From NCBI GenBank assembly GCA_027310755.1, contig DAIDAE010000005.1:1-41506 (forward strand): a stretch of DNA of 41,506 nt. The letters run 5' to 3'. How positions within the stretch are numbered: position 1 is the first letter of the stretch; each line of letters starts with the position of its first letter. The stretch comes from Candidatus Micrarchaeaceae archaeon. Its GTDB lineage: Archaea > Micrarchaeota > Micrarchaeia > Micrarchaeales > Micrarchaeaceae. Position numbers and translations under genes: made by a program. The notes under the pieces are model-generated. The model had not been told where the DNA came from. It did not search any database and worked only from the letters and a program-made list of their open reading frames with translations. Positions 9,490 through 41,506 of this stretch are shown piece by piece.

Positions 9490-9492
9490 GCT

Positions 9493-10236: not shown

Positions 10237-10325
10237 AATATCACCGCGAATTCATTATAAATCAGAATAACCGTATAAATACTTTTGTATTCGGAATTTT
10301 GATGCGAACGCATCTGTTTGTCGAC

Positions 10326-10703: not shown

Positions 10704-10712
10704 GGCATCACA

Positions 10713-13411: not shown

Positions 13412-14237
13412 TCAGGTCGCCCTCGTTCATCTGCTGCGCCATCTGTTCGGTGGTGGTCGAATACGGTATGAGGTACTCGGGCTCCACGAACTTCAATATG
13501 TCCTGGCCGGTTATGACGCTCGGCTGCACGCCAAAGACCGCCGCTATCCCGGACATGACCTCGCGCGCCCTCTGCTGCGCAGTGGAAAGCGCCTCGTATT
13601 CCTGGTCGCCCCTCGCAGACACCATTGCATACGTGACCATCTCCAGCGATGTTGTTTTTCTCACATTATCGAGCATCGTCTGCCACATGGATGCCTTCCC
13701 ACGCGCCCTGTGTACTGCGCTTTCCGGAGCCCCTGTGCTTGTGAGCGATGATTCCTCCAGCTGTGCGGCACTTGCGTTGCTCCTTATCGTGTTTATGTAA
13801 TTGTCCTTGTTCATTATGTAGATCTGGCTGGTGTACCTGACGGGCAGCTCGCTGGCGCTCACCAGTTTTGTCAGCTGGGTGGAAAAATTCAGCTTCTCCT
13901 CATCGGTCATCTCGGTGCCGGATCTGTAGAGCGGTATCCTAACAAAAACGGTGGAGACGTATTCGCCGCCGTCCTTGGTCAATATGGCATCTCCGGCGGA
14001 GGAAATCCAAAACGCATCCTCGTTGCTTATCACTATGTCCCTTTTCCTCTGGCGGAACACGGGCGTAATCAGATAGGAGTACCCCCTCACGGAGAGCGCA
14101 AGGCATGAGAAGAAAATGCCGATGATGAGAAATATTATCTTGTATACCGGGAGCAGCGAGGATATGCCTACAGTTATCACCACGATGGCGACTCCGGTCG
14201 CAAAAAACCCAAGGAACATGAACAATCTGTTGTCCAT
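13404..14237 (-). CDS. VirB3/VirB4 N-terminal-domain-like membrane protein (paralog A)
   Basis: Two N-terminal TM helices, 'EMTDEEKLNFSTQLTKLVSASELPVRYTSQIYIMNKDNYI...'; overlaps downstream gene by 8 bp. Confidence 0.6.
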   Translation of the reverse strand: MDNRLFMFLGFFATGVAIVVITVGISSLLPVYKIIFLIIGIFFSCLALSVRGYSYLITPVFRQRKRDIVISNEDAFWISSAGDAILTKDGGEYVSTVFVRIPLYRSGTEMTDEEKLNFSTQLTKLVSASELPVRYTSQIYIMNKDNYINTIRSNASAAQLEESSLTSTGAPESAVHRARGKASMWQTMLDNVRKTTSLEMVTYAMVSARGDQEYEALSTAQQRAREVMSGIAAVFGVQPSVITGQDILKFVEPEYLIPYSTTTEQMAQQMNEGDLNG

Positions 14238-19190: not shown

Positions 19191-19196
19191 GCTTGA

Positions 19197-20852: not shown

Positions 20853-20854
20853 AC

Positions 20855-22165
20855 CTATATGGCAGACCAGAAGCCTGCAGCTCCCTCAATCCCTGATTCC
20901 AGGGCCTTTGCAAATCCGATTGCAAAGCCAAGCGTAACGGTTATATTTATCGCAAAAAGCACCACCACTATGAACATGAATTCTGAGATGGAGAGGGCGA
21001 TGTATTGCACTCCCTGTATTATCTGGTCGCCGCTGGCATTGACAATGCCGACGAACGGTATGGCGCCGGGGAGCGAGCTGACCTCGTTGGATAGTTGTAT
21101 CATGAAGGCAAAGAAATCGCTCGGGCAGATGGGCAGCGCAAAGGATATGAAAGGGAGGGGGAGGTTGTACGAGCATGCCGTCGAGGAAAACATGCTGTTC
21201 AGGTTGTCATGCGAATATGTTATCAAAAGGTAACCCGCCTCTGGATTGCACGCCGCGGTGTTGGTCGCCCCGATTGCGCACGGGGTGAAGAGCCAATGTA
21301 TGAAATATGAATCGACGACCACCATCACCGGGTACACTATGTACAGCGCTATCGCTATGGCTATCATGGAGTTCGCCGCGTATCTCAGGTTCGCGCCACC
21401 GAAGGGGAGCGACCGCATTACCAGCGCCACTGGGAGTATTATCGCAAATGCAGAGGCCTGCGATATGACCAATATCAGGTACTGGAACAGCATTATTCCA
21501 ACACCCAGCATCACCATCGGGGAAAGTATGTCCAGGAATAGCCCGCTGAGTATCGTGTACGGGGCGGAGAGGTCGACCCCTACTGGCATTTCTATTGATA
21601 CCTGGACGGGTCCCACATTGAATTCTCGGGCGAATGTGGGCCAGAGCTCTCCCAGAGCCGAGCTGATCTGCGACCATATTGCGGCCACTATCGCATACGA
21701 ATACGAAAATGCATACAGCTCTATGCCGAGCCGCGGCCCGGTGTCAAAGGCATAATTTCCTGTGTATGCAAGGGCATAGGCGAACGGATCACCCGGCTGC
21801 GTGGAGGCCGTAACTGCGACATTCGCCTCCTGGAGTGCCGGGAAGGGAATGCAAACCGAGGATCCTACAAATGTGCTGCACACTACAGAACTCTGCGTTA
21901 CTGGATTTGGGTTGCCTATCGCGCTTGTCACGCTAGCCGCTGCGCTGCATATGAAACTAGTGGTTCCGAGCAGCGCCAGTATTATTATCATGCTGATGAA
22001 GACCTGGGTCAGCTCCATCTTCACCACGCCGTTGATCTTCATCCTTGTGCCCCCCGGGAGGAACCTGCTCGCCAGGTAGACGAACGAGAGCACGGCTATC
22101 GAGAGCAGTATGACCAGAAAGTTGTTCCCCAGCCAGCTTGTTCCATAGGTGCATGTGTACGCCAT
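20855..22165 (-). CDS. VirB6/TrbL/CedA-like polytopic membrane protein (paralog 2)
   Basis: Motif 'ILPVALVMRSLPFGGANLRYAANSMIAIAIALYIVYP'. Confidence 0.68.
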   Translation of the reverse strand: MAYTCTYGTSWLGNNFLVILLSIAVLSFVYLASRFLPGGTRMKINGVVKMELTQVFISMIIILALLGTTSFICSAAASVTSAIGNPNPVTQSSVVCSTFVGSSVCIPFPALQEANVAVTASTQPGDPFAYALAYTGNYAFDTGPRLGIELYAFSYSYAIVAAIWSQISSALGELWPTFAREFNVGPVQVSIEMPVGVDLSAPYTILSGLFLDILSPMVMLGVGIMLFQYLILVISQASAFAIILPVALVMRSLPFGGANLRYAANSMIAIAIALYIVYPVMVVVDSYFIHWLFTPCAIGATNTAACNPEAGYLLITYSHDNLNSMFSSTACSYNLPLPFISFALPICPSDFFAFMIQLSNEVSSLPGAIPFVGIVNASGDQIIQGVQYIALSISEFMFIVVVLFAINITVTLGFAIGFAKALESGIEGAAGFWSAI

Positions 22166-22172
22166 TTTGATA

Positions 22173-23531
22173 TCACGCGAGTTTCATTTTTCCCACACCG
22201 AGTTTTATCTGTCCTCCTAGCGCCCTGGCTATCCCCTGCGCTATTGTCACCCCGATTATGAGATCGAGGATGAAGAGCACGAACTGTATCACCACTGGGA
22301 GCATAAATATGAACATGGGGTTAAGTATTGGATAGATGTCGCCACCCACAAATGCGCTGAGCGCACCGCAGTATCCCGTGAAGAACGCCCAATAATCGTT
22401 CTCTCCAGTAGTAAATAAAGGAATAGGAGGGCATGCGACAATAGTAGATGACCCCAATCCACCCGGAAGGCCTGAGAATACCACGCCCACCAATGGGTTG
22501 AATTCGGATATAACGCCGCAGAGCAGGGTGCCGAGAACGCCGCTCGGGCAGGTGGAGTTGAACGCGTTCAAAATGGCCCCGGAATTTTCTGGATACAAGG
22601 GCGAGAAGAAGTAAACTATTGGGGCATTGAACATCGCCAGGAGCGCCGGGTATATTATTGCCCCTGCTATCGCTAGGGCTATTAGCGTGGCGCCTATCGG
22701 CCTGAGGAACGGTGTGGCCCTGAAGATCAACCCTAGAGGAAGAAGCACACCCAGAGATATGGCAATTACGTCTATGAAAATTGCATACTGGGTTTCCAGC
22801 ACAAGCATCATCGGAAAGATAAGGAACGTGAACACCAGCCCAAGGATGTGCGAACCTCCAGTCACGGGGTTCGCGTCTATTATGGAGCCCGAGTACAGGT
22901 TGAAATCAGATCCGAGGTTCAGGCTGCCAATAAGGGTGTCACCCGCAACGGGCAGCGGCGGGAACGGTATTGTGAAATATGTATTGAGCCTTATGGATTT
23001 TAGGAATTCCGCGCCCATGGAGATACCGAGGAGGTTGTTGAAAGATTCATTGGTGTAGTTTATCGACCCCAGTGAACATCCTGTGCCGAATGTGGAGTAC
23101 GCAGTATAATACATTAGGTCAAAACCGTTTGTAGATGCGCTGGCGCCAAGGCATTTAAGAGGGGCGGTGACGCCAGGGAGTAGGGAGGCAAGGGCTCCGG
23201 AGATGACTATCACGGAAAGTATCACCCCTACTATTAACAGGCTCTTTATCGCCTCCCAAAGCTCGCCCTTGTACCATCCCTTGAACGACTGTATGGCAAG
23301 CACCTCGCCGATCAGGTAGGATATCGCGACTATGGTAAACGACAAAAGGATGGCTATGAATACAAACGGAACCGCGCTGTTTATGCACGTGGCCAAGTCA
23401 GGAACCGTGCCGCTGGCGGTCGCGCAGTAAAAATTGGTGAGTTGCGTGCCGAGCGATGAGGCGCCTGCAGTCGATTGAAGCGCTGCAAAAATGAGAGCAA
23501 CAATGGCCGCAAACCTTAGACCGGAAGGCAT
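22173..23531 (-). CDS. VirB6/TrbL/CedA-like polytopic membrane protein (paralog 1)
   Basis: Motif 'LLPLGLIFRATPFLRPIGATLIALAIAGAIIYP'. Confidence 0.7.
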   Translation of the reverse strand: MPSGLRFAAIVALIFAALQSTAGASSLGTQLTNFYCATASGTVPDLATCINSAVPFVFIAILLSFTIVAISYLIGEVLAIQSFKGWYKGELWEAIKSLLIVGVILSVIVISGALASLLPGVTAPLKCLGASASTNGFDLMYYTAYSTFGTGCSLGSINYTNESFNNLLGISMGAEFLKSIRLNTYFTIPFPPLPVAGDTLIGSLNLGSDFNLYSGSIIDANPVTGGSHILGLVFTFLIFPMMLVLETQYAIFIDVIAISLGVLLPLGLIFRATPFLRPIGATLIALAIAGAIIYPALLAMFNAPIVYFFSPLYPENSGAILNAFNSTCPSGVLGTLLCGVISEFNPLVGVVFSGLPGGLGSSTIVACPPIPLFTTGENDYWAFFTGYCGALSAFVGGDIYPILNPMFIFMLPVVIQFVLFILDLIIGVTIAQGIARALGGQIKLGVGKMKLA

Positions 23532-23595: not shown

Positions 23596-24387
23596 CTATC
23601 TCTTTAGCATCGGGAACCTGGCCATGTATGACTGGCTCTGCAGCACGACAAGGAATGGCATTATGAAAAGGGAGTTGAATATCAGTATTAGGTAGCTTGA
23701 AAGCGCGGCGCCGCCCACCGCTATGAAAATGGAGTCGAATACGCTTAGGAGCATAAACCCGGCAACGAACCAGAGCAGTATGTTGTCCAGCCGCTTGAAG
23801 AAGAATGAAAAGCTCTGCTGCATCGCCCTCCTCAGGCCTTTTTCATCAACGACTATTGACGCCGGGGCGTAGAAGAACAATGGCAGGATCACTATGCTCA
23901 GCACAGCTGCATACACCTCGCTCGCGTTCAGCACGTAGGCGAGCATGTTGAAAAGGACGACCAATACCGTGTATATGAGCAGGACGACGAACACCCTAGA
24001 GGTGTACTTCTCTAGCCCATCCATGACCTCCTTCCTTATTCTTGTCTGCGTCCTGCTGTGCTTTACTATGACATTTATGGCCACTATCGCAAAGCTCAGG
24101 AAAAGAAGGGAAAGGAGGATCGAGAATGTTATCACCGCTGTGGTGAACGGGGTCAGGTTTGTGAGCACGCTGGCCAGCCTCAGGAATATGCCCCCCATGT
24201 CGTTGTATGTCGGGAACGATGCAAAGGCTGGGATCAGGAACGCGATTATGAAGGATATGGAGAATAGCAGTATCAACGGCAGGTGGCTCACGTATATTTC
24301 CGATGAATATTGGAGGGTGCTTTTCATTGAAACCACCGCGACCTGCGATAAGGATGGTTTAGATGGCAAGGAATATAAAGCATGCAC
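23596..24387 (-). CDS. Six-TM integral membrane protein of unknown function
   Basis: Several hydrophobic segments and 'VVDEKGLRRAMQQSFSFFFKRLDNILLWF' typical of DUF-type 6TM proteins; Met at ~24327 is an alternative start. Confidence 0.65.
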   Translation of the reverse strand: MHALYSLPSKPSLSQVAVVSMKSTLQYSSEIYVSHLPLILLFSISFIIAFLIPAFASFPTYNDMGGIFLRLASVLTNLTPFTTAVITFSILLSLLFLSFAIVAINVIVKHSRTQTRIRKEVMDGLEKYTSRVFVVLLIYTVLVVLFNMLAYVLNASEVYAAVLSIVILPLFFYAPASIVVDEKGLRRAMQQSFSFFFKRLDNILLWFVAGFMLLSVFDSIFIAVGGAALSSYLILIFNSLFIMPFLVVLQSQSYMARFPMLKR

Positions 24388-24487: not shown

Positions 24488-24892
24488 TTAGCATCCTCCT
24501 GCCGTCTGCGCATTTGCCACAACGGTCGTTGATGAGTATCCTGTCAGCACAGTCAGGATGTATGGGGCAAGGACTGCTATTATGATGCCTACTACGCCGC
24601 CGAGCACCATTCCCATTCCGTATCCCTGCATTGTCCCTTTTGAGGAACCAGGCATCAGGTGCGAGCCCGCATATAGTGCACCGCCCAATATCATCAGCAT
24701 CAAGCCGATCACAAAGATGGCGGTGGACACTGTTTGATAGACCTGGACTATGGAGCAGAGTACGCTGTTGCTCCCAGCTGTCGACGCAAAGGCCGGCGCA
24801 GCCATTATGCTCAATAGCGCCAGAGCCGCAAAGCCCAGTCTGAATACGTTGTTGTTCGCCGCGGACAACAGCTTGTATATTGGATTGTTCAT
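24488..24892 (-). CDS. VirB2/TrbC/CedA1-like pilin (major pilin candidate 1)
   Basis: Signal peptide then 'LCSIVQVYQTVSTAIFVIGLMLMILGGALYAGSHLMPGSSKGTMQGYGMGMVLGGVVGIIIAVLAPYIL' (two TM with short charged loop). Confidence 0.78.
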   Translation of the reverse strand: MNNPIYKLLSAANNNVFRLGFAALALLSIMAAPAFASTAGSNSVLCSIVQVYQTVSTAIFVIGLMLMILGGALYAGSHLMPGSSKGTMQGYGMGMVLGGVVGIIIAVLAPYILTVLTGYSSTTVVANAQTAGGC

Positions 24893-24936
24893 GCATTACA
24901 CCATTATGTTTTCAGATAATAACTGTGTGAGGAAGG

Positions 24937-24945
24937 TTTATAAAT
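24937..24945 (-). promoter_or_regulatory. TATA box of pilin gene
   Basis: Minus-strand ATTTATAAA ~45-50 bp upstream of the pilin ATG. Confidence 0.5.
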
Positions 24946-25082
24946 CTATCCACCAAGAGTTTTCTCCTTTTAAATAGTTTTTGATACCGGAAGTATGAGA
25001 AATATCCTCCAGAGTGGCCGTTATGGACAGGGTATGGAATACGGTGCTGTAATTATAGGATTGACTCAACCCTTTCCGAATG

Positions 25083-27578
25083 TCAGGAAACAGCAGGGCA
25101 GGCGCCGAGCAGGTTTGCAATTGGTATATTCGCAATCTGGGACACAGCATATACGGACACCGCCGCTATCGCCACGCCCACTATCCCGCCAATCACCATG
25201 CCGATCGCATATCCCTGGAGCGTGCCCCTCTGTTGCGACGGAAATATCGAGGAGCTTTCATAGAGTATTGCCCCGATTATCGCAAGCATCAGGCCTATGA
25301 GGAATATGATCCCATTGATCGTGGAGTATATGCTGCAAAGTTCCCCGCTGAGCGGCGCGACCACTGCGTTTCCAAAGTTTGTCCCGCTGCTGCCTATTGT
25401 AAATGGAGGACCCACAACAAATACCGATCCTGCCACGAATGTATTCTGGTACATCTCACATAGAAGGTATGTATTTGCGGCGAGGCCGCTGCCTGCAGGA
25501 GGGGGGGCACCGGAAGCGGTGGTCCATGTGGCGGTGCAGCTGTCGCCATACTGCGGATAACCTGATATTGCAATTGAACATCCTATCGTAGAGGAGCCCT
25601 GCCGGACAGGCGTCCATGCGCCATTGAGCTGCGGGGTGTAGCTTACCAGGCACCCTCCTTTGCCGCCGTCCGCGCTTGTACCGGTGCACGCCTTGCCGGA
25701 CGACTGCGTGACATCTGAGCACATGCTCTGCAGGTTGCCGATCTGCGCATTCTGCCCTATTGGCAGGAAGTATACGTTTGCGGGATAGTTTAGCGCTTCG
25801 TCGATGTTCGCCGTGATGGTGGATGGGTCGTAGTTTCCATTCTGGTCCGGCTGCATGCCATTGAAGACGGTTATTGTGCCGGATGCTGAACCGAGAAGGG
25901 TGTTGGTGCTGCTTATTACTGTGGGAAATTCTTCGTTGCTGGTCCCGAAGAGGCAGGTGGAGCCATTGCATTGTGCGTTAACGCTTGCAAAGAACAGGGC
26001 GGTGTTCGCCGTTGAATAAGCATATGGGGGAGTGCCGACGGACCACCCATCTCCGTTAGGATAGCCGTAGTTGGATCCCATTTGGAGAGGAGAGGTATAA
26101 TTATAAAGACAGAATGCATAATTGCCGGTCGTCGTTGGGATCCAGGATGGCACCGCCCATCCTCCCAAAGTTTCGCTTTCTATCAGGCACGGTAGCCCTG
26201 CCGCGCCGGCTACGTTGCCGCATGACGGGAGCGACACGACATTGCCGTTGGGGCCGAGTGGGGAAACACATCCCGCGGCGGTTGATCCGCCCGCGGCTTC
26301 CAGATACAAGTTTGGAGCTGAAGGATAAACGCATGGACCATTGCATGCGCCACTTACAGGAGGAGTCAAATCTCCCTGCAGATACCAGTACCACCAAAAG
26401 GGGGATTTGGTGCTTGTGTCCGGAATTGGATTCAGGATGCATCCCTTTATGCCCTTACCTCTGGTTGTGCTGTAGCAAGCCCCGGAGAGCTTCCAGCCTG
26501 AGCTCGGGTTCTGCATTTGCAGCATCCCGGGCTGGTCTGCTCCTGTAATATTTATGCTGCCTATCGCGCTCCAGCTTGGGCCGGCTGGAGTTTGGGGAGG
26601 CGGGCCCTCATTGGTGCCCTGGTAGAAGCCGCATACATCATACACCCCCTGCGGCAGCGTATCGTTTGTTATGTATGTCATGTTGCAATACGTGGGGCTC
26701 CAGCCCTGCGCCGAAGCTGGCATTGCCACGTTCGCAGTATCGAAAAGGCAGGGAGGATATGGATTCTGGGCGAAGCCACCGGTGCTGATGGCCTCATTGC
26801 AAAGAACATTCGTCGGGGAAGATGAGGTCGTGAGCGTAGTGGTCAGCTTGTCCGGGGCGGCGCATGAACCCCCGGGCGCGGAGAGCTCTATGAGCGTAGC
26901 GTCTGTGCACGAAGCATTGTATACTACCTCGCTGATGTAGGTGGAGGTTCCCGGGATCAGCTTCGTCGCGGCAATGCTGAGTTGGCTTGATATTGGATAT
27001 ATGCCGTTTAGAACAACCTCCGCATCGACAAGACTGCTGCAGGTGCCACTTCCGGCGCCGGAAGTTATAAACACGTTATATGTGCCCGGGGGTTCTGATA
27101 TTGTATTCTGGTATGTAAGGCACCAGTCCGTCGTGTGGCCTGAATCCACCACAGTCCCGCTGATTGTGTTTGTTATCTTCCATGAAACATAACCGGTGCT
27201 GCCGCCGCCAGCGGAGAGAGCGAGCTGCCCGCCTGTCCATATGCAGATTGCATTGGTAGATGTACTGTAAGCACTTTCAGATACTGAAAAGCCGTTGCAG
27301 CTGTTGCTGATGGATCCGCTAGAAGTTACAAAAAGGGTCTGGAAGACTTGCAATCCGTCCGTAGTGTCAAAAGCGCTTACCGTGGAGATGCCTGGGGCCG
27401 TGGCGGTTATGAGATCCTTCGTATTGGTTGCAACAGGATTAATTGATATACTCAGCGTGGGCATGCCGCTACTGTAAGTTCCAGGATTTGCCTGTGCTAT
27501 TGTATTGTACGGCAGGAGAACTAGCATGGATATTACGATACAGAGCATCACTGTTTTAGGAAGACTGCGATTCGTCAT
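25083..27578 (-). CDS. Giant secreted protein with C-terminal pilin-like (VirB2) two-helix module
   Basis: Signal peptide; Cys/Thr/Ser-rich exterior; C-terminal 'LCSIYSTINGIIFLIGLMLAIIGAILYESSSIFPSQQRGTLQGYAIGMVIGGIVGVAIAAVSVYAV'. Confidence 0.75.
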   Translation of the reverse strand: MTNRSLPKTVMLCIVISMLVLLPYNTIAQANPGTYSSGMPTLSISINPVATNTKDLITATAPGISTVSAFDTTDGLQVFQTLFVTSSGSISNSCNGFSVSESAYSTSTNAICIWTGGQLALSAGGGSTGYVSWKITNTISGTVVDSGHTTDWCLTYQNTISEPPGTYNVFITSGAGSGTCSSLVDAEVVLNGIYPISSQLSIAATKLIPGTSTYISEVVYNASCTDATLIELSAPGGSCAAPDKLTTTLTTSSSPTNVLCNEAISTGGFAQNPYPPCLFDTANVAMPASAQGWSPTYCNMTYITNDTLPQGVYDVCGFYQGTNEGPPPQTPAGPSWSAIGSINITGADQPGMLQMQNPSSGWKLSGACYSTTRGKGIKGCILNPIPDTSTKSPFWWYWYLQGDLTPPVSGACNGPCVYPSAPNLYLEAAGGSTAAGCVSPLGPNGNVVSLPSCGNVAGAAGLPCLIESETLGGWAVPSWIPTTTGNYAFCLYNYTSPLQMGSNYGYPNGDGWSVGTPPYAYSTANTALFFASVNAQCNGSTCLFGTSNEEFPTVISSTNTLLGSASGTITVFNGMQPDQNGNYDPSTITANIDEALNYPANVYFLPIGQNAQIGNLQSMCSDVTQSSGKACTGTSADGGKGGCLVSYTPQLNGAWTPVRQGSSTIGCSIAISGYPQYGDSCTATWTTASGAPPPAGSGLAANTYLLCEMYQNTFVAGSVFVVGPPFTIGSSGTNFGNAVVAPLSGELCSIYSTINGIIFLIGLMLAIIGAILYESSSIFPSQQRGTLQGYAIGMVIGGIVGVAIAAVSVYAVSQIANIPIANLLGACPAVS

Positions 27579-27706
27579 ATTACCCTTTCCTTTTCGACTT
27601 AATTAATTATTAAGAGGTATTTAAATTACTGATAGTTTTGCATTCCATTCCAAATCGCGACCTGCTGATCAAAACTACGTTATTGATTTTGTACTTGTTA
27701 TATTGA

Positions 27707-30700
27707 CTACGGATTTACGGGAGGATTTGCACCGTAGTTATACGTATATAGAGATCCATTACCGCCGGAAGCGCCTTGGAGAATGCCGTTTTTGCCATCA
27801 CAATTTGGACCCATAGTACCTGCCTGACCGCCACTATAAGATATACCGCTCGTTGATCCCAGCACAGAATTGAACGCCAGCACCACTATGCCACCACCGC
27901 CACCACCGCCTTGCCCTGCAAATACGCAGCCCTCCTGACTTTGTTGCGTAGTGCTAGGGGATCCGCCCATTTGACCGCCGGCCAATATAGTACCAGGGTT
28001 TAACACCACAGCCTGGATGTACAGGCCATATGCACCCGAACCGCCGGCTGCGCCTGCTTCAGCAGCGCCATTAATACATCCGGAGCCGCCGCTGCCGCCT
28101 CCTGCACCCTCGAGATATTGATACATCCCATTACCAAACCATGATGCCAGATTATTCTGCCAGCCCGCCGGCAGCTTGGCATTTGCCCCAGAGTATGGAC
28201 CCGCGCACGATCCTCCGTTGGTATCGCATCCTATTCCATTGGCACCATCTGTTGTGCCAGATGCGGGAAGGGTAAATCCCCCATAACCTGTTTGTGTTAT
28301 GGGTGCTGAACCTGTGTAATAGCACGAGGGTTCGCCTCCTCCGATACCGCAATTGCTCTGAGAGAGATAATTGTAATCGCCCACGCCCCCTCCGCCTGAG
28401 CCACCATAGGATGAGCTTGCGGAGATGCCATCATTTGCATATGAGCCGCTGCCGCAGCTTCCTCCGCAGAGGACACTGCATGCGCTTGGCTGTACACCAC
28501 CTGGGGCGCTGTTCCCTGTTATTATCATGCCAGAGTTAGTAAACACTCCTCCAGTTATTATACTGTAGCCCGCAGTTGTGAGTGTAACACCGGGTGCGAT
28601 TGTCACATCGCACTGAGTATTCACGTCACCGCCGAGGGTCTGGCTGGAGGAGAATATTGTCTGGCATCTCGGATCGACGATCAATGTGGCCTGCGAAGAC
28701 GTGCCGGTCAATGTGTCAATAGCAGTATAGGTGTAGCTGCCTGGCGTGTCCCATATTCCAGTGCTCCCAGAGCATCCGCCTGTACCGGAACAGACCGTCC
28801 CAGTGCTGCCACCGGGGCCAATCGGACCAGTCACTTTACACGTGTCTCCACTCACTCCGAATGGCAGCGCACATATGACTGTGGAACTCTGATATGTGAA
28901 TATTGAGCTTGGGTTTATGCTTATCGTTGGAGGGGGTGCGGGCTGGACGTTGAGTATTATAGAATTGGTGGTGTCCAATGTGGTGTCGGTAGCTGTATAG
29001 GTGTAGCTGCCTGGCGTGTCCCACGGACCCGCTTTTCCAGAGCAGCTGTTTGTCGAGGGCCCGCAGATGACCGTGCTCCCCTGTATTATTTCCACGCTAT
29101 CCCCGCTTAGGACAGTGGTGGCGGTGACGGTTGTGCTGTGATACGCGTATATAGGATTGGCTGCAAGTTTTATTATCGGAGGGGGAGGGGTTGAGGTAAG
29201 AGTTGCTGAATTCGCAGTTTGGGTTGTAGTATCTAAGGCCCAGTATGTGGTTGTGCCTATGCTTGAAGGTGTGACTGAAGCGGTGCACGTTCCCGCGCTT
29301 GGCCCGCATAGCGGGGTTCCGAAGAACGACGCCGACACCTCACACAAGTCAGTGCTTGGGAAGCATGTTGCAGTGACCTGCGCACTGCTTCCGGCGTATA
29401 CTGGGTTGGGCACTATTGAAATATCTGGAACTGTTGGAGATGGAGGCGGGAGTATTGTATTGGTGCTCGGGGTGTTGAATCCCTGTAATCCTGCACCGCT
29501 GCATGAATTGAGCGCCAATATCTGCCCTACAGACAAACCTGTGCCCACGGTGAGGAAGTATATAGATACCACGGTTATCACCGCGCTGGCAACGCCGGCT
29601 ATGACCAATCCCATTCCATAAGCCTGGGCCTGGCCCCTCGCCTGCCCTGGCAGGAGCGATGCGCCCGCATAGAGGACGGTGCCGATGAGCATTATCACCA
29701 ACGCGAGCACGAAAAGAGATTCCGATACATACAGGTACAGGGAGCACGCCGTATTCTGTATCGAATTGAACCCCGCAGGGGTACCGGTCGATGTCGAGCA
29801 GAATGGGTTATAGCCGTTGCAGGAGCCGGTGGTGAAAAATGTGAATCCCCAGAACATCCCGTTGTCGGTTTCCGGGGAGGTTATACCGTCACCCTGGACG
29901 GCCGGATTGTATGGCGGGACATTCTCGTATGCACAGACCTCGTAATTATTCGGGGACAGGCGAGAGGAGTCGAGTTCCGCCGAGACCGCAACCGGGTCGG
30001 TTGACGATAGTGTGGTGTAGCCCGCGCTTCCCAAAAGGCAGGGAAGGTTTGCGGTTGTCGGGTCTGCCATGATCTGCGAAGAACGGCGCACGGCTACCGT
30101 GTAGGTCGGGCACGCAGGCATTATCCCTGGATCTACACAGTACTGGCTGCTGAAAAGGGCGCCGCTCACGGAGTCCGGGCTCGACAGTTCAAGATATATA
30201 TTGGTAGGGTTCTGCAAGGACGTCTGGTAGCTGCCGGTGGAGCACCCGGAACATGTTATAGCCGTGCCCACCGCCGATATGCTGTATGTATTTGCACCGG
30301 TATTAATCGCGTTTACTTGCAATGGGGAGAGCATGTTGTAGACCGGTACATAATACGGCCCATAAACCACGTTTCCATCGGCGCCTGATCCCCCATAAAG
30401 GGCATTTGCCAATATTGCATTTGTTACGGCAGTGCCAGGCGTGTCCGGCGATGACACAAAGCTTGACGGGATGCTGGTTGTTTCTCCATTGTACGTCCAG
30501 TAGCATTGCGCCGCATCCCCATTGCAGGCGCCGGTGGTTCCCGCCCTTGAGATATCCGCCACGATGATAGTGTAACATAGATTGTAGATTCCCGGACCCT
30601 TGTTTATGATTCCGGCACCGTTTATCATGTTGTCAGTGACCCATCCAGTAGCCACGCAGTCGAACGGACCTAGGCCGTGTCCCGGGCCGCATGAGCTTGC

Positions 30701-31165
30701 TGCGCCAGGCTGGCATTGGCCGTTTTCGTACCCGCAGGTGCCTGCAAGTTCAGATGGGCCATTCGTGTACGGCCATCCTCCCTGAATATTTGACATCTGG
30801 GCAGAGCTGGGGCACTGGTAAACCCAGAAATAGCATGAAGGGCCGTACTGGCAGGTATTGGTGCCAACGTCGTAGCCAGTCTGCACCTCCTGGCAGTAAT
30901 TGTTTATGCCGTTTACAGAGGCGTAGATGGATACCTGCGTGGAGCCGCCGGTGAGCGTGCTTGGCTGCAGCACCGACACGTCCACTGTGTTGAACACATT
31001 TGCTATCGAGGGCGCAGGGCCGGAGCATGCGGATACCGCTGCGGCCTGGTGCAACAGCACAGATAGCAAAACAAATGAGATGAAGAGCGTGAGAAGTACA
31101 GACGCTGCTGGTTTGGCTGGCATTCTTGGACCACTGGCCCTGCACGATCCGCATGGAGCGTGCAC
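27707..31165 (-). CDS. Giant secreted protein with internal pilin-like module, three Ig-like repeats and a Gly-rich C-terminal domain; translation start probably ATG at 31123
   Basis: Signal peptide 'MPAKPAASVLLTLFISFVLLSVLLHQAAA'; module 'CSLYLYVSESLFVLALVIMLIGTVLYAGASLLPGQARGQAQAYGMGLVIAGVASAVITVVSIYFL'; 'WDTPGSYTYTA' repeats; 'GGGGGGGIVVLAF' tail. Confidence 0.78.
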   Translation of the reverse strand: MHAPCGSCRASGPRMPAKPAASVLLTLFISFVLLSVLLHQAAAVSACSGPAPSIANVFNTVDVSVLQPSTLTGGSTQVSIYASVNGINNYCQEVQTGYDVGTNTCQYGPSCYFWVYQCPSSAQMSNIQGGWPYTNGPSELAGTCGYENGQCQPGAASSCGPGHGLGPFDCVATGWVTDNMINGAGIINKGPGIYNLCYTIIVADISRAGTTGACNGDAAQCYWTYNGETTSIPSSFVSSPDTPGTAVTNAILANALYGGSGADGNVVYGPYYVPVYNMLSPLQVNAINTGANTYSISAVGTAITCSGCSTGSYQTSLQNPTNIYLELSSPDSVSGALFSSQYCVDPGIMPACPTYTVAVRRSSQIMADPTTANLPCLLGSAGYTTLSSTDPVAVSAELDSSRLSPNNYEVCAYENVPPYNPAVQGDGITSPETDNGMFWGFTFFTTGSCNGYNPFCSTSTGTPAGFNSIQNTACSLYLYVSESLFVLALVIMLIGTVLYAGASLLPGQARGQAQAYGMGLVIAGVASAVITVVSIYFLTVGTGLSVGQILALNSCSGAGLQGFNTPSTNTILPPPSPTVPDISIVPNPVYAGSSAQVTATCFPSTDLCEVSASFFGTPLCGPSAGTCTASVTPSSIGTTTYWALDTTTQTANSATLTSTPPPPIIKLAANPIYAYHSTTVTATTVLSGDSVEIIQGSTVICGPSTNSCSGKAGPWDTPGSYTYTATDTTLDTTNSIILNVQPAPPPTISINPSSIFTYQSSTVICALPFGVSGDTCKVTGPIGPGGSTGTVCSGTGGCSGSTGIWDTPGSYTYTAIDTLTGTSSQATLIVDPRCQTIFSSSQTLGGDVNTQCDVTIAPGVTLTTAGYSIITGGVFTNSGMIITGNSAPGGVQPSACSVLCGGSCGSGSYANDGISASSSYGGSGGGGVGDYNYLSQSNCGIGGGEPSCYYTGSAPITQTGYGGFTLPASGTTDGANGIGCDTNGGSCAGPYSGANAKLPAGWQNNLASWFGNGMYQYLEGAGGGSGGSGCINGAAEAGAAGGSGAYGLYIQAVVLNPGTILAGGQMGGSPSTTQQSQEGCVFAGQGGGGGGGIVVLAFNSVLGSTSGISYSGGQAGTMGPNCDGKNGILQGASGGNGSLYTYNYGANPPVNP
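28725..28753. repeat. 29-bp perfect direct repeat, copy 1 (encodes WDTPGSYTYT in Ig-like repeat 3)
   Basis: gtataggtgtagctgcctggcgtgtccca identical to 28995..29023. Confidence 0.85.
28995..29023. repeat. 29-bp perfect direct repeat, copy 2 (Ig-like repeat 2)
   Basis: identical to 28725..28753. Confidence 0.85.
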
Positions 31166-31190
31166 GGGAACATTAGTATGTATCTGGGGG

Positions 31191-31204
31191 CTTTTAAATA
31201 TTTA
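31191..31204 (-). promoter_or_regulatory. TATA-containing promoter element CTTTTAAATATTTA (plus-strand spelling) upstream of the 1152-aa gene
   Basis: 14-bp identical element at 34280..34293 upstream of the 881-aa gene. Confidence 0.55.
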
Positions 31205-31229
31205 TTTGAATGCAGGGGGAGCGCGGTTG

Positions 31230-31613
31230 TCATTTGCATATCCATGCGTCGGGCACGGATGGGCAGGACGGGTTTGATCCATCGTGGAGGAAGGTGCATG
31301 TCTTGCCAACCGGGCATGTACCACTAGTACAGCCATTGCCACCAGGGCCTCCGCCGCAGGTATACTATTGTGATATGGTGGTTGTGGTGGTTTTGATGGT
31401 TGTCGTGGTTGCCTTGCAATTAAATACCGGTTTGGCGCCGTTAAGCCCGCAGCCGCTGGTGGAAGTCATCACGCAGGTTTCACCGGAGGGATAGTAACTG
31501 AAGCCGTAGTATTGCCCGCAGAAATTCGAGCCAGGTACGGTGGTGGTGCCCACCGATGTGCTCAATGAGGTGGCGGTTATGGTTGTTGTGGTGCTCGTGG
31601 TTATTGCCGGCGC
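31230..31613 (-). other. In-frame extension of the 881-aa ORF beyond TAG (31614-31616): Thr-rich linker + Cys-rich module, second TAG (31365-31367), second Cys-rich module, TGA (31230-31232)
   Basis: LCRA[TAG]APAITTSTTTTITATSLSTSVGTTTVPGSNFCGQYYGFSYYPSGETCVMTSTSGCGLNGAKPVFNCKATTTTIKTTTTTISQ[TAG]YTCGGGPGGNGCTSGTCPVGKTCTFLHDGSNPSCPSVPDAWICK[TGA], translated by hand. Confidence 0.7.
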
Positions 31614-34259
31614 CTATGCCCTGCAGAGGCTTATCGCGTTGACAAGCGAGGTTTGATTCACTGAAGACAGCGCGTAAACCCCGATCACCGCAATCAGGGC
31701 GGCTATCACTCCCACCATGATAAAGCCGGTGCCGTAGCTCTGGATAGGGCCCCTTCCGGCTCCGGGAAGAAGAGTCGAGCCGGAATACAGCACGGCCCCA
31801 AGAAGCATCATCAAGAGGGCAAATATAAATAGGGAGTCATTTATTGCACCGTAGACGCCGCATGCGATGCCGGCATACGAATTGGGATTCAATGAATTGT
31901 AAACTCCTATTCCTCCCGGGCCGATACCGAATGCACAGCCTGGGCACAAGGAGTTTGGCACCTCCTGTGGGTTCGGGAACGCTGTGCAATACCCATTTGC
32001 GCAATCGACAGACATCGAGGCGAAGAAGGGGGAGAAATACATTGAGTTTGCATTGCAATTCAACCCAAACACGGAGCAGTAATTGGAATAGTCTACTGCG
32101 TATACCAAGTAGTTACCAGTTCCCAGATATTGCGTATCGAAGGGCTGCTCATATGTGAAGTTCTGGCTGTTGCCGTACGTGTTCGTGGTGTACCCGTTCA
32201 ATATGCATGAATCCTCTGCCACGCTATTGCTAGGATTGTAGCTCCAGTACAACAGGGGGCACGAGTAGCTGGGAAGAGTACCACAGCCCGGACCCACAGA
32301 CATGCAGGTCTCGCTTCCTGATGATGTAATGCCAAACAGGTAGCTGCCCCCTCCCCCTCCTGGACAGTTGATGGCCGATATGATCTCTGGCACGGTCAAT
32401 GGAGGAGTATAACTGTAAAGAGCCATGGTGGGCACGGGGGAAATTGCACCACTGCAGGAAAACCCAGGAGTGGGTGCTATCTCTGCGGCCGAGGCGCCGA
32501 GGTTCCTGCCAGCCGCTATGGAATTTTCTGTTCCAGCAAACCCTATGTAGCAGAGATCACCCACCGGACATATCTCTGGCTTTGTCCCGATGGGATTTGA
32601 ATATGACTGCATTGCAACGATCTTGATCATTATCGTGCTGCCTTCCCTGAATTGCTGTGGCGGAGTTACGGAAGGAACAAGGGTAAGCCCGTAGCTCCAG
32701 GAGGGCACCTTTGTTATATTTATTGTGGTGCATGAAGCGAGAGTTGCGGAACTGGGGTTGCCGCTGCTATCGAAATACGCACAGTATTGTGCATAGTGGT
32801 TTACACCAGGCCAGCCGCCATAATCATTGGTGTTTGTAAAGTTTGATATCTGGCATGTCCCGCCCGCGCCGGAGTTGCAGCTGGCGAACACCGTTGGGTC
32901 GTGGAACCAGCAGGCGTTGGAGACCGACGACCAACCGACCAACCATCCGGTCTGGCCGTACTGGCTGCACTGCGCTCCCCCTACGCTACCCAGATTCTGA
33001 GGAGGCTGCACCGTATTGGCAAATATGACAAAGAACGTATCCTTCTGCAAGTTGGACGGGGAGTAACAATTTCCCAGCGTTGCAACAACATTGCCTATCG
33101 CGAAAGATACGTTTGAGGACGTGCCGACCATTATTATGCCGGGATATGCAATCAAGGAATTTGAAAGCGGTGACACAATCCCTGTGCCGCTGCTGCAGGG
33201 CGCTATTGAAGTAGTTGTTGAGCTGCCAGTTGTGGTGGTTGATGATCTGCCAGGTATTGTAGTAGTGGAGGTGGGTGGGGGGCTGCCGCTCGGACAAGTA
33301 TTGCCAGAAGCATACCAAAGTTCCAAAAACTTTGTGAAGGCGGTTATGTTTCCGGGGAGAATATTCAACCAGTCGCCGCTCACGTTGTGGCATGTGCCAA
33401 CTGCATCTTCATAAAACTGCAGTCCTGTTATCGGAGTCCTTCCAGAAGTAAGACCCCCTAGCGTGACTATACTGCCGCCGTTGCTGATGGCATTGGACAT
33501 TATCTGCGTGGCCTCATGGTTTAGGAAGCTGTTGAATGTGTCGCTTGAGGATTGCAGGGATTGCGCCTGGATGCTGAAGATTCGGCCAAGTGGGGGCGGC
33601 AGCGTCGGGTTTCCGGAATAGGTAACGCCTATCTTCTCGCCGTAGTCGCCGTAGTAGAACCTGGTTGCATCGCAGCCCCACTGGCCAGGACAATATGACG
33701 ACAGCGTACCGTTGTCCCCCGTGATATCCAATCCCGGCGCGGGGATGTATATCAAGCCGTGCAGGCGGGCCCACGCAGCGACTATGGACGAATATGACCA
33801 TATGTAATCCTGTTCGGACTGGGGTGTGTTAGGCCATTTCTCATTGTCGTACTGTACGGCCGTGATAGGAACTGGAGATGACGGTACCGGAGGGTTCTTA
33901 CCTGTGCATGTGCTTACGCTCGTGCAACCAGCGAAGCCTTGCCAACTGTCAATTTTAATCATGCAGTGCGCATTCGGTATATATGTGCACTCGGTGTATG
34001 GGCCGCCAGGGTTCACATCCATGTAGGTATTTGGATTGTTGAACCACTGCTGAAGGAGGGCGTTTGACGTGCCTCCCGACATCGGGCTCCCGCTGCATCC
34101 TCCGGAGTTGCAGCCGGTAGCCACGCCGAAGTCGGCTATATTTGAATATTGGTTTATGCCGAGTATCCATGTCTCGGCATATGCACCATATGAAAAATAC
34201 GCAATCAGGATTGAAACGAGAAGAATCGTCCTGCCCCTGCCCGAGAGCGCCATATGCAC
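31614..34259 (-). CDS. Giant secreted protein: TIM-barrel/glycosidase-like N-terminal domain, Thr-rich linker, C-terminal pilin-like module
   Basis: 'ITAVQYDNEKWPNTPQSEQDYIWSYSSIVAAWARLHGLIYIPAPGLDI'; 'PTSTTTIPGRSSTTTTGSSTTT'; 'GVYGAINDSLFIFALLMMLLGAVLYSGSTLLPGAGRGPIQSYGTGFIMVGVIAALIAVIGVYAL'. Confidence 0.75.
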   Translation of the reverse strand: MHMALSGRGRTILLVSILIAYFSYGAYAETWILGINQYSNIADFGVATGCNSGGCSGSPMSGGTSNALLQQWFNNPNTYMDVNPGGPYTECTYIPNAHCMIKIDSWQGFAGCTSVSTCTGKNPPVPSSPVPITAVQYDNEKWPNTPQSEQDYIWSYSSIVAAWARLHGLIYIPAPGLDITGDNGTLSSYCPGQWGCDATRFYYGDYGEKIGVTYSGNPTLPPPLGRIFSIQAQSLQSSSDTFNSFLNHEATQIMSNAISNGGSIVTLGGLTSGRTPITGLQFYEDAVGTCHNVSGDWLNILPGNITAFTKFLELWYASGNTCPSGSPPPTSTTTIPGRSSTTTTGSSTTTSIAPCSSGTGIVSPLSNSLIAYPGIIMVGTSSNVSFAIGNVVATLGNCYSPSNLQKDTFFVIFANTVQPPQNLGSVGGAQCSQYGQTGWLVGWSSVSNACWFHDPTVFASCNSGAGGTCQISNFTNTNDYGGWPGVNHYAQYCAYFDSSGNPSSATLASCTTINITKVPSWSYGLTLVPSVTPPQQFREGSTIMIKIVAMQSYSNPIGTKPEICPVGDLCYIGFAGTENSIAAGRNLGASAAEIAPTPGFSCSGAISPVPTMALYSYTPPLTVPEIISAINCPGGGGGSYLFGITSSGSETCMSVGPGCGTLPSYSCPLLYWSYNPSNSVAEDSCILNGYTTNTYGNSQNFTYEQPFDTQYLGTGNYLVYAVDYSNYCSVFGLNCNANSMYFSPFFASMSVDCANGYCTAFPNPQEVPNSLCPGCAFGIGPGGIGVYNSLNPNSYAGIACGVYGAINDSLFIFALLMMLLGAVLYSGSTLLPGAGRGPIQSYGTGFIMVGVIAALIAVIGVYALSSVNQTSLVNAISLCRA

Positions 34260-34279
34260 CGGATAATAATGGCTACATC

Positions 34280-34293
34280 CTTTTAAATATTTA
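34280..34293 (-). promoter_or_regulatory. TATA-containing promoter element upstream of the 881-aa gene
   Basis: cttttaaatattta identical to 31191..31204. Confidence 0.55.
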
Positions 34294-34330
34294 GTTTATC
34301 AGTGTGCAATGTCCCGTTTTCGATGTTAGG

Positions 34331-34702
34331 TCAGAATCCAGGGCAGAACGTGGCTATGTTTGTGGCTGAAGTGCTGAATATCTGGCCGAGCAGCCATGGC
34401 GCCAGCATCGCTATTATCGCGCCTATTGTGCCGCCTATCACCAGGCCCATCGCATATGCTTGCACCTGCCCCCTCGCGGATCCTGGAAGGATCTGCGCAC
34501 CCGAGTAGACTGCGCCCCCCAAAATCATGAGGGTCAATGCCAATATGAACACCGCGTCGTTGACCACAAAGTATACGCTGCATATCGCGTTTGTGACATT
34601 GCTCTGCGCGCCGCTCGTACCGGAGAGCGCCGTCCCCAGCAGCACGAACGCCGTCATCAGCACGCGCAGGATGTTCGGAAGGTTGGCTTCAACTTTGGTC
34701 AT
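34331..34702 (-). CDS. VirB2/TrbC/CedA1-like pilin (major pilin candidate 2)
   Basis: 'ICSVYFVVNDAVFILALTLMILGGAVYSGAQILPGSARGQVQAYAMGLVIGGTIGAIIAMLAPWLL'. Confidence 0.78.
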   Translation of the reverse strand: MTKVEANLPNILRVLMTAFVLLGTALSGTSGAQSNVTNAICSVYFVVNDAVFILALTLMILGGAVYSGAQILPGSARGQVQAYAMGLVIGGTIGAIIAMLAPWLLGQIFSTSATNIATFCPGF

Positions 34703-34783: not shown

Positions 34784-35842
34784 TCACAGGAGACTGCCAA
34801 CATTGCCGACTATGCTCTGGTAGGCCTCGCACGATGTCCATTGCACCGGCTCTTCCCCCCTCTTTATCGCGGACCTTACCTCCTCGGCTTCCCTGCCGGA
34901 CCAGACCTTCCCGAGGGCGAACCCGACCTCCCTGACATTGGCGATCTTCTTGTCCCACATTATCGACGGATATATGTTGCCCCAGCTGTCCAGGAAGAGC
35001 GAGGCCTCGAGGCTCCTGCTTTTCATTGGCTGCTTGCCGGTCTTGGCAAAAACCAGGAGGTTCTTCAGGAATGCGCCCTCGACAAGCTGCATCGGTTCCA
35101 TCTGCATTCTCCTCATCTTCAGGAACTGTTCCAGCTCCGCAACCATGTCGTCGCTGGCAGCCTTCACCTGGCTGTTCTCATTATGGTAATAGTTGGAGGA
35201 GTTCTGCGCCAGGTTTATGTGGAAATCGTTCGCGGTTGTCCCGGGTAGCTCCTTCATGACCTCGTTCACCGTCCTTATCAGCTGCCCCTCGTTGAACTTG
35301 TTTATAGTGTAACCGAAGAGAAAGGAGAAGCCAGGATATTCCTTCTTCATCTCCGTGAATTTCCTTGCGAGGGCCATCACCCTGTCGAAATTGCCCGGCA
35401 CGCCCCTGACCCTGTCGTGGACCTCCCTGTGGCCATCGAGGCTTAGGGTCATCACCACTCTCGGTATGCCAAGCTTCAGTATCTCGGTGAGCCTGCTTAC
35501 CACGAGCTCGTTGCTGCAGAGGGAATTTGTCGGCATCGTGAGGACATAGAGTTTCCTTGATTCCTCCTTGAACGCCCTTGCTATTTCGACTATGTCGCTC
35601 CTCAGGAACGGCTCTCCGCCTGTGAGCTCCACCCATTTAAAGGAATTGTTCTTCTTCGCAAACTCCCTTATCTCCTCTATCGTCAGTTCCCCGGTGGGCT
35701 TGAGCTGCCATATGCTGCAGTGCAGGCACCTGGACTGGCACCTCATCGTTATCGCAAAATTCAGCTTGTAGGGCAGCTGCAGCCTTGTGAAATTAGACCT
35801 CAGCGCCGTGGCCCCCAAACCTATGAATTTATTAGTATGCAT
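34784..35842 (-). CDS. Radical SAM protein
   Basis: 'NFAITMRCQSRCLHCSIWQLKPTGELTIEEI' CxxxCxxC; 'ELTGGEPFLRSDI'. Confidence 0.9.
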   Translation of the reverse strand: MHTNKFIGLGATALRSNFTRLQLPYKLNFAITMRCQSRCLHCSIWQLKPTGELTIEEIREFAKKNNSFKWVELTGGEPFLRSDIVEIARAFKEESRKLYVLTMPTNSLCSNELVVSRLTEILKLGIPRVVMTLSLDGHREVHDRVRGVPGNFDRVMALARKFTEMKKEYPGFSFLFGYTINKFNEGQLIRTVNEVMKELPGTTANDFHINLAQNSSNYYHNENSQVKAASDDMVAELEQFLKMRRMQMEPMQLVEGAFLKNLLVFAKTGKQPMKSRSLEASLFLDSWGNIYPSIMWDKKIANVREVGFALGKVWSGREAEEVRSAIKRGEEPVQWTSCEAYQSIVGNVGSLL

Positions 35843-35993
35843 GTCCGCACCGTCAGTTCAAATCCGTAAATAGGATATTTGCATTACAGATATTTATACC
35901 AGAGCCCCCGATACAATAAGTACGATATGTATCTGCCATATTTGTTGTTTTATCTGGAAATGGTTGTGCGATAGCTAGGCCTTATAAATTCAT

Positions 35994-37327
35994 AGTGGGA
36001 AAACCCACGACTTTCAATCATGGGATGAAAGCAGGCGCGACACAAAATGTATAAACATTGGCAGGCAAGTGAACATGGTCATCTTGAAGACGGCGTATAA
36101 ATTCAGGGCGTATCCTTCGCAGATACAAAAATCAAGACTTCATCACCAGATGTCCCTATCAAAACAGCTATGTAATCTTCTCCTTGAACAATCACAAAAA
36201 CACTTTAAGGATACTGGAAAGACTTTCACAAAATACGACATGAACAAATGGATTACGAAATTCAAGAGAAAGAATCCGGACTTCAATGAACTCCATTCTC
36301 AGGTTTGTCAGAATGTCGCAGACAGAGTATCAAAAGGATACAAAAACTTCTTCAGGAGGATAAGGGAGAGAAAGCAGGGAAAGAAAGTCAGGGTTGGATT
36401 TCCACGTTTCAAATCCTATGTTTCGTCATTGACCTACCCTCAGGACAATGGATTCAAGATAGAAAGGAAAAGAATATCCCTCTCAAAGATAGGAAGAATC
36501 AATTTCGTGAACCATAGGGAAATCGAAGGAAAGGTAAAAACCGCCACAATAAAACAGACCAAATCTCAGGAATGGTATGTCACCATTTCTGTCGAGAAGG
36601 ACGACGTGCCGATATTTTCCAATAATAAACCGCAGGTAGGAATGGATTTGGGACTGAAGGAATACGCAACCTTGTCAGATGGGACAAAAATATCTAATCC
36701 AAGAATCTCCAACAAGTCAATAGACAAACTGAAAACGATTCAGAGGAGATTGTCAAAAAAGAGGAAAGGAGGAAGGAACAGAAGACTTGCAAAAATCAAA
36801 CTTGCAAGAATCTCTGAACACATTGTAAGACAGAGAGGGGATTTCCTTCACAAGACTTCTCATAATCTCGTGAATTCATACTCATTCATTGCATACGAGG
36901 AATTGAAGATTGCAAATATGGTAAAGAACCATAATCTTGCAAGGCAGATAACGGACGTTTCTTGGGGAAACTTCATCCAATATCTTTGCTACAAGGCTGA
37001 GAACGCTGGTTGCAAAGTGGTTGGAGTGAACCCAGAGAATACCTCGAAAACATGCAGTGGATGTGGAAATATACAGGACATTGAATTGAGCGAAAGGACA
37101 TATCTCTGTCGGCGATGCGGACTGAAAATTGACAGGGATTTGAACGCATCAATCAATATCCTAACTACCGCAGGACTTGCGGGAAGTAACGCCTCTGGAG
37201 ACGTTGTAAGACCTCAACTACGGGAGGCTGTCGTCGTTGAATCAGGAACTAAATTTGGTGTTTCACGATGACCAATCAAAAGAACGCCATTGGAAGCCAA
37301 CGACATTCGGTCGTTGGAGGATGTCAA
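35994..37327 (+). mobile_element. Solo IS605/IS1341-type TnpB element, copy 2, upstream of / fused to a glycosyltransferase
   Basis: Left end TTCAT|AGTGGGAAAACCCACGACTTTCAATCATGGGATGAAAGC; right-end hairpin CCAACGAC-ATTCG-GTCGTTGG (37297-37317) + AGGATGTCAA; boundary uncertain by a few nt. Confidence 0.8.
36069..37271 (+). CDS. tnpB: RNA-guided nuclease TnpB (IS605 OrfB family), copy 2
   Basis: 'GMDLGLKEYATLSDGT', 'IAYEELKIANM', 'CSGCG...CRRCG', 'DRDLNASINIL'. Confidence 0.93.
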   Translation: MNMVILKTAYKFRAYPSQIQKSRLHHQMSLSKQLCNLLLEQSQKHFKDTGKTFTKYDMNKWITKFKRKNPDFNELHSQVCQNVADRVSKGYKNFFRRIRERKQGKKVRVGFPRFKSYVSSLTYPQDNGFKIERKRISLSKIGRINFVNHREIEGKVKTATIKQTKSQEWYVTISVEKDDVPIFSNNKPQVGMDLGLKEYATLSDGTKISNPRISNKSIDKLKTIQRRLSKKRKGGRNRRLAKIKLARISEHIVRQRGDFLHKTSHNLVNSYSFIAYEELKIANMVKNHNLARQITDVSWGNFIQYLCYKAENAGCKVVGVNPENTSKTCSGCGNIQDIELSERTYLCRRCGLKIDRDLNASINILTTAGLAGSNASGDVVRPQLREAVVVESGTKFGVSR

Positions 37328-38002
37328 CTTTCTATAGTTATACCAACCCTGAACGAGGAGAAGAATATAGGGCGCCTGCTCGTGCAGGTCAAAAGGATTG
37401 TGGGCAGCTACAGCCATGAGATAATAGTGGTGGACGGTGGCGCCGGCGGGCCCTCGGAGGATGGCACGGTCAGGACAGCAAGGAGGCACGGGGCAACGGT
37501 GCTGTATGACAATGCTGGAAAGGGCTCCGCCCTGATAAGGGGGTTCAGGGCGGCAAGGGGCAGCATAATAATCTCGATGGATGCGGACCTGTCGCACAGG
37601 CCGAAGGAGCTAAAACTGCTCATTTCGGGGATAGAATCGGGCTATGACATCTGCGTGGGCTCCAGGTTCATGTCAGGCGGCGGCTCGGCCGACATGCCAC
37701 CCTTCCGCGTATTCGGGAACAAGGTGTTCGTTGCAATGGTGAACCTTCTCTATGGCTCCAGGTACTCCGACATGTGCTACGGATACAGGAGCTTCACAAA
37801 GCACGCGCTCAGGAGGATAAGGCTGCGGGAGAAAGGGTTTGGCATCGAGACCGAGATAAACATAAACGCCAGGAAGGCGGGGCTGAAGGTCCTCGAGGTG
37901 CCGAGCTTCGAGAAGAAGAGGGCGGAGGGAGAGGGAAAATTGAGGAGCTTCAACGACGGCCTTGTCATACTGGGCGTAATAGCAAAGAATCTTTTTGTCT
38001 AG
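37268..38002 (+). CDS. GT2 family glycosyltransferase (dolichyl-phosphate mannose synthase-like), N-terminus encoded by TnpB right end
   Basis: 'LSIVIPTLNEEKNIGRLL', 'SMDADLSHRPKEL', 'GSRFMSGG'; first ~20 aa come from the IS right end. Confidence 0.88.
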   Translation: MTNQKNAIGSQRHSVVGGCQLSIVIPTLNEEKNIGRLLVQVKRIVGSYSHEIIVVDGGAGGPSEDGTVRTARRHGATVLYDNAGKGSALIRGFRAARGSIIISMDADLSHRPKELKLLISGIESGYDICVGSRFMSGGGSADMPPFRVFGNKVFVAMVNLLYGSRYSDMCYGYRSFTKHALRRIRLREKGFGIETEININARKAGLKVLEVPSFEKKRAEGEGKLRSFNDGLVILGVIAKNLFV

Positions 38003-38014
38003 CCCGCATTTTTT

Positions 38015-41477: not shown

Positions 41478-41506
41478 CAAGCATCAATGAATAATTCGTT
41501 AATTAC

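Follow-up and report, generated by a model that had tools for sequence, protein, structure and literature searches.

A pilin module shared by small and giant proteins suggests pili carrying their own adhesins in a host-dependent Candidatus Micrarchaeota archaeon

How host-dependent DPANN archaea attach to their hosts and exchange material with them is an open question. Cryo-electron tomography has revealed filaments or nanotubes between Micrarchaeota and their hosts, for which no symbiont-encoded machine was named and a host origin was favoured in both reports (PMC8975820, PMC11329633). We examined a stretch of 41,506 nucleotides from a Candidatus Micrarchaeaceae archaeon (assembly GCA_027310755.1, contig DAIDAE010000005.1, positions 1 to 41,506; hereafter the window), in which five genes encode proteins with one and the same pilin-like module. 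Two of these proteins are stand-alone pilins and three are giants of 831 to 1152 amino acids (aa). What does a pilin module do in a giant protein? Our preferred answer, to which we assign a probability of roughly 55%, is that the fusion proteins co-assemble as minor pilins or tip subunits of a Ced/VirB4-type pilus. The five genes, in order of transcription, are:

34331 to 34702, minus strand: 123-aa stand-alone pilin (P0005), first gene of the cluster; module at 34376-34603
31614 to 34259, minus strand: 881-aa fusion protein (P0004); C-terminal pilin module at 31653-31883
27707 to 31165, minus strand: 1152-aa fusion protein (P0003); central pilin module at 29540-29767
25083 to 27578, minus strand: 831-aa fusion protein (P0002); outer region followed by a C-terminal pilin module at 25128-25355
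24488 to 24892, minus strand: 134-aa stand-alone pilin (P0001) with the strongest Pfam TrbC/VirB2 match; module at 24542-24769

The module common to these five proteins spans about 77 residues and consists of two helices. Its alignment is gap-free with 12 invariant columns, and pairwise identities range from 29 to 44%. All 10 module pairs reach local scores of 147-205 against shuffle means of 32-34 (500 shuffles; z 17.7-28.1). Nine neighbouring membrane proteins score 28-59 against the same modules, and the parts of the three large proteins outside the module likewise stay at background. The five modules thus almost certainly belong to a single homologous family. No further copy was found across the genome (869,511 bases, 62 contigs), which has exactly five, all in the window. 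The first-pass annotation of this DNA had named these five proteins, whose reading frames are all present on the minus strand, and the gap-free alignment together with the shuffles confirms its proposal of a shared module. Its consensus pattern captures the family and is slightly too strict as a literal description: the 134-aa protein has CSIVQVY, with a shifted cysteine, and LMPGSSKG, the 831-aa protein has IFPSQQRG and the 881-aa protein has CGVY.

We then asked whether the module is related to known pilins. The 134-aa protein matches Pfam TrbC/VirB2 (PF04956) over nearly its full length (E 2.3e-5, 24.9 bits). TrbC matches at E<0.1 occur in 17 of 37 stand-alone relatives and matches to T4SS_pilin (PF18895) in 8 of the 37. 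The TrbC matches are full-length and consistently placed in many module members, and for the same 10 sequences they were obtained with 8 in forward orientation and with none when reversed. The AlphaFold model of the pilin consists of helices 36-71 and 75-108 joined by a short loop, mostly with a predicted local distance difference test (pLDDT) score above 90 in that part. Like VirB2/TrbC/TraA pilins (PF04956; PF18895), the window pilins combine a hairpin of two long helices, a short positively charged loop and an apparent N-terminal signal with a gene near a VirB4-type ATPase and weak full-length profile matches. The family differs from them in scoring below the Pfam cut-off, in a conserved cysteine pair, and in giant outer domains or tandem copies. 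On this evidence, a relationship of the module to VirB2 is very likely.

The conservation of the module also bears on its orientation in the membrane. Among 80 modules (39 stand-alone, 30 fused and 11 tandem), every one has two flanking cysteines, the first at the beginning of helix 1 or just ahead of it and the second a short way past the end of helix 2, and in tandem proteins each repeat has its own pair. Lysine and arginine average about 1.0-1.15 per loop versus 0-0.20 per flank. In most large proteins a hydrophobic segment lies at the N-terminus, and no other strong candidate membrane segment appears between it and the module; the outer regions are poor in lysine and arginine and mostly rich in cysteine. 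By eye, the window module proteins have a hydrophobic N-terminal stretch followed by an A-x-A-like site. Because the flanking cysteines are co-conserved, each tandem repeat has its pair and positive charge is concentrated in the loop, the data fit a topology with the loop inside and both ends outside, as had been predicted at first pass. Cleavage of the signal and a disulfide between the flanking cysteines are probable corollaries.

If the module is a pilin, what are the giants to which it is fused? The 881-aa protein comprises a signal-like N-terminus, a 293-aa orphan domain, a Thr/Ser/Pro linker, a beta-rich, cysteine-rich region and the module. In its AlphaFold model (mean pLDDT 38) moderate confidence is limited to the terminal hairpin (pLDDT about 75-83) and the membrane-near beta-rich part. 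The 1152-aa protein has an outer N-terminal region, the module, and then repeats that look Ig-like and a Gly-rich region. The listed first codon of the 1152-aa and 881-aa proteins is GTG; by eye, M15 and M3, respectively, look like better starts. Immediately past the TAG that ends the 881-aa gene, its frame remains coding-like (31233-31613, minus strand; a Thr-rich linker and Cys-rich stretches), with a single further TAG ahead of a TGA; this stretch would be either the remnant of a C-terminal extension that has decayed or a product of read-through. Recoding of TAG as a general code was rejected, as many window genes end in TAG with no coding-like continuation.

Pilin fusion recurs well beyond this genome. 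The module was found in 190 of 225 genomes of the phylum, and a scan with the 123-aa pilin alone gave one locus, 55% identical, in a Candidatus Micrarchaeota metagenome-assembled genome. Counting reading frames of 240 aa or more, we found fused modules in at least 17 genomes (this one included) from at least 7 genera in two families, at the C-terminus, in the centre or near the N-terminus. A module tree (86 columns, many unresolved forks) clusters the fused modules by operon slot, with supports of 96/83 for the 881-aa slot (three members), 97/92 for the 1152-aa slot and 100/93 for the 831-aa pair; the first-gene slot is not resolved. That first gene encodes 123 aa in the window versus 442 (G004), 573 (G001), 687 (G005) and 250 aa (G006) in relatives, and the 123-aa and 442-aa proteins share 64% identity over the module and nothing else. 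The initial division into two stand-alone pilins and three giants thus describes the window well and is not a fixed one. In genome G025, a separate fusion and that genome's own stand-alone pilin are sisters in the tree (100/96). It appears from these patterns that fusions arose multiple times independently, and that the slots are inherited while the outer part varies.

The outer parts indeed change between close relatives. Orthologs of the three large proteins align in the membrane-adjacent part and differ farther out. The 293-aa domain of the 881-aa protein has no match in the genus and one marginal fragment match in 303 genomes, and the 1152-aa protein continues for 600 residues of Ig-like-looking and Gly-rich sequence beyond the module, where its G004 ortholog stops. 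Several fusions contain Ig-like or InlB-type repeat domains (Big_13, Ig_3, Flg_new_2). By eye, the C-terminal extension of a 1284-aa fusion with a central module in G006 (L050:2229-6083) looks Kelch-like, with YCIGG/YCFGG repeats. The large outer regions noted in the first-pass annotation are therefore lineage-variable and in some cases Ig-like. We found no support for its suggestion that they display enzymatic domains. Searches of Pfam and the PDB with the domain at the N-terminus of the 881-aa protein gave nothing above chance, its model was not confident, and it occurs in no close relative. A conserved module with a changing outer part is what we would expect of adhesins that follow their hosts.

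Two relatives carry the module in tandem. A single 781-aa frame of genome G002 (L037:3241-5586) contains seven modules, and a single 632-aa frame of G013 (L039:10313-12211) contains four. Both poly-pilins begin with an outer N-terminal domain, have linkers of about 20-27 residues and contain no internal stop. Their N-terminal parts are weakly similar (1.2e-6), and the two may be orthologs; the repeats group by genome except for the last ones, indicating separate expansion. A proline in helix 2 is invariant in stand-alone modules and present in 11 of 11 tandem modules versus 12 of 30 fused ones, so tandem modules may sit in the shaft and fused modules in special places.

The five genes head an operon whose other products resemble a type IV secretion system (T4SS). 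After the 123-aa pilin, the 881-, 1152- and 831-aa proteins and the 134-aa pilin, the order of transcription is as follows:

23596 to 24387, minus strand: 263-aa polytopic membrane protein, adjoining the pilin genes in all relatives in which the junction was seen
15659 to 23531, minus strand: six consecutive paralogous polytopic membrane proteins of 452, 436, 551, 377, 379 and 421 aa
14297 to 15556, minus strand: TnpB-like insertion
12578 to 14237, minus strand: two related 277-aa proteins with an N-terminal membrane segment, by eye possible counterparts of VirB3/VirB4-N
11029 to 12531, minus strand: VirB4/HerA-superfamily ATPase; nearest NCBIfam model CedB, E 2.5e-19
6940 to 11021, minus strand: four conserved genes (102, 125, 247 and 795 aa) in the same order as in relatives

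Apart from the TnpB-like insertion, this gene order is kept in genomes G001, G004, G005, G006, G012, G013 and G020 as far as their contigs or stretches reach. Among NCBIfam models the ATPase ranks closest to CedB, followed by HerA, CedD and VirB4/TraC, and in the PDB it matches HerA proteins and the VirB4-like 4ag5 (E 7.7e-10). It is of the CedB/VirB4 type and not a CedB equivalog (69 bits versus a cut-off of 700 bits). Profile-profile comparison places the six polytopic proteins in one family, 11 of the 15 pairs at 97-99.7% probability; the 436-aa protein is in every one of the four lower-scoring pairs. None of the six has a credible Pfam match, nor did the two scanned against NCBIfam have a match there; by architecture and position only, we call them VirB6-like. 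Their order is conserved in relatives. Known systems have a single CedA or VirB6, and the six paralogs may form a hetero-oligomeric channel. The possible VirB3/VirB4-N identity of the 277-aa pair found no backing in Pfam, the resemblance being one seen by eye. The 102-aa protein (10713-11021, minus strand) is similar to roughly the last 90 residues of the ATPase encoded beside it (hhalign probability 95%). Across the genus, a full-length ATPase ortholog and a strong module mostly co-occur: G007 and G010 have neither, and G011 (62% complete) has the ATPase and no strong module. Taken together, these data make it likely that the operon encodes a T4SS-like pilus machine. ATPases of the type II/IV pilus type (PF00437) are encoded elsewhere in 13 of the 14 genomes of the genus, and the operon is therefore not the sole possible pilus.

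These observations led us to propose a mechanism. The operon would be a chromosomal Ced/VirB4-type, T4SS-like pilus machine and the module a VirB2-like pilin hairpin, with the two stand-alone proteins serving as shaft pilins. In the three large secreted proteins, the hairpin would be the membrane or polymerisation end. Following export via Sec through the N-terminal signal, the hairpin would sit in the membrane and expose both of its ends on the outside, and a disulfide linking the two flanking cysteines would hold it closed. Hairpins would then be drawn from the membrane into a filament by the ATPase together with the six VirB6-like subunits. Fused modules would enter this filament as minor subunits, probably at its tip or its base, and their outer domains would point outward and bind the host archaeon or its S-layer. 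A more specific picture, in which the adhesins are covalently in the pilus, part of the filament is a single chain of four to seven pilins, and the outer domains are swapped for the host, is one we hold tentatively, at somewhat less than even odds.

Several points weigh against co-assembly into a pilus. A VirD4-type coupling protein (PF02534) is found in 0 of 14 genus genomes (5 of 14 control genomes matched). The best PF04956 score of 24.9 bits lies below the curated cut-off of 27.9, and no protein of the genome exceeds that cut-off. A search of PDB sequences with the pilin profile returned nothing credible and matched no solved pilin, and Foldseek with the pilin model gave nothing at E <= 0.001. 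The Foldseek result is non-discriminating, as the model is a simple hairpin of moderate predicted template modelling score to which many helical hairpins match weakly. Given that neither the PDB nor Foldseek lends support, we describe the module as VirB2-like and leave it out of PF04956; the VirB2-like label of the first-pass annotation survives as a weak but specific TrbC similarity and not as a curated assignment. One could go further and deny the module any relation to VirB2, taking it for a separate family of two-helix membrane proteins and the operon for something other than a T4SS, a view to which the sub-threshold Pfam matches, the missing structural match and the lack of a credible Pfam match for the VirB6-like genes all lend themselves. 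We consider it highly improbable, since the full-length, consistently placed TrbC matches are absent from reversed sequences, the ATPase finds its best matches in CedB and other ATPases of the VirB4 type, and hairpin, loop charge and apparent signal are as in VirB2-type pilins. Finally, the modules of the 831-, 881- and 1152-aa slots have drifted, mostly losing the helix-2 proline, and may therefore no longer polymerise.

This drift is one ground for the chief rival to co-assembly, namely that the pilin hairpin was borrowed as a plain two-helix membrane anchor and that the giants are surface adhesins which never enter a filament. Fused modules evolve faster, and many have lost two typical traits of stand-alone pilins, the helix-2 proline and the G-to-A position. 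Multiple independent fusions would come easily if any hairpin served, and a shaft would presumably be hindered if each subunit bore a large outer domain. Yet a plain anchor needs neither the cysteine pair, retained in 30 of 30 fused modules, nor the core residues Y, G, Y, P, G, Y, G and G, each kept in at least 90%; the genes stay in fixed slots of a pilus operon, and up to seven tandem hairpins would be pointless for anchoring. We judge an anchor unlikely, though a serious contender. Less likely still is a fixed, non-filament complex of fused modules and VirB6-like proteins, for instance a pore lining or a tip of the VirB5 kind, which would be extruded, if at all, only as the opening turn of a pilus. 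The fixed slots beside six conserved VirB6-like genes agree with such a complex, as do cysteine-rich outer domains that could form a cap. The pilin profile also weakly resembles part of two VirB6-like families (probabilities of 9% and 54%), in keeping with the reported homology between pilin and CedA (PMC9905601). A fixed stoichiometry is hard to reconcile with the number of fusions, which varies from 1 to 5 or more among close relatives with the same VirB6-like genes.

How does the proposed pilus with co-assembled fusions compare with known systems? The Ced and Ted DNA-import systems of Thermoproteota (CedA, CedA1, CedB; TedA, TedC, TedB) include archaeal VirB2-like pili, and their pilin shows homology to the N-terminus of CedA as well (PMC9905601). 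They share with the window operon a chromosomal T4SS-like gene set with a VirB2-like pilin, a polytopic membrane protein and a CedB/VirB4-like ATPase; the window operon differs in its six polytopic paralogs versus one CedA and in its several pilin-fusion proteins. Patescibacteria are likewise host-dependent ultrasmall cells with several pilin paralogs near a VirB4 gene, and their T4SS loci have arrays of 2-11 separate VirB2 genes (PMC12102498), unlike the single genes with four to seven modules or a giant outer domain described here. Nanohaloarchaeal SPEARE proteins are giant DPANN surface proteins in which Ig-like domains are also joined to a T4SS part, in their case a VirB4/TraG-type ATPase domain (PMC10266531), whereas the window giants carry a pilin; no ATPase domain matched in the three giants or among the families found in 28 fusions. 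VirB5 and the Gram-positive PrgB-type conjugation adhesins are similarly presumed to contact the partner cell (PMC12857230), but are separate proteins not covalently joined to a pilin, and we saw no VirB5 or PrgB profile match in the window giants.

In the open-licence literature we found no report of a T4SS pilin that is joined to large outer domains or occurs in several copies within one chain. As far as we could find, these would be the first T4SS-type pilins with fused adhesin-like domains and the first natural tandem VirB2-like pilins. The conserved pilus operon, whose pilins tether outer domains that change rapidly, offers a concrete and testable candidate for host recognition.

Other features of the window are of a different kind. 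Rfam gave no match within it, and no copy of the pilin was found in plasmids or phages. The TnpB-like gene at 14297-15556 (minus strand) splits the pilus operon between a VirB6-like and a 277-aa gene, where the operon is uninterrupted in the relatives examined, and is related to a second TnpB-like gene at 36069-37271 (plus strand). At 34784-41480, radical SAM, GT2, PMT-type and carbamoyltransferase-like genes adjoin the operon, as they do in relatives, and may decorate surface proteins.

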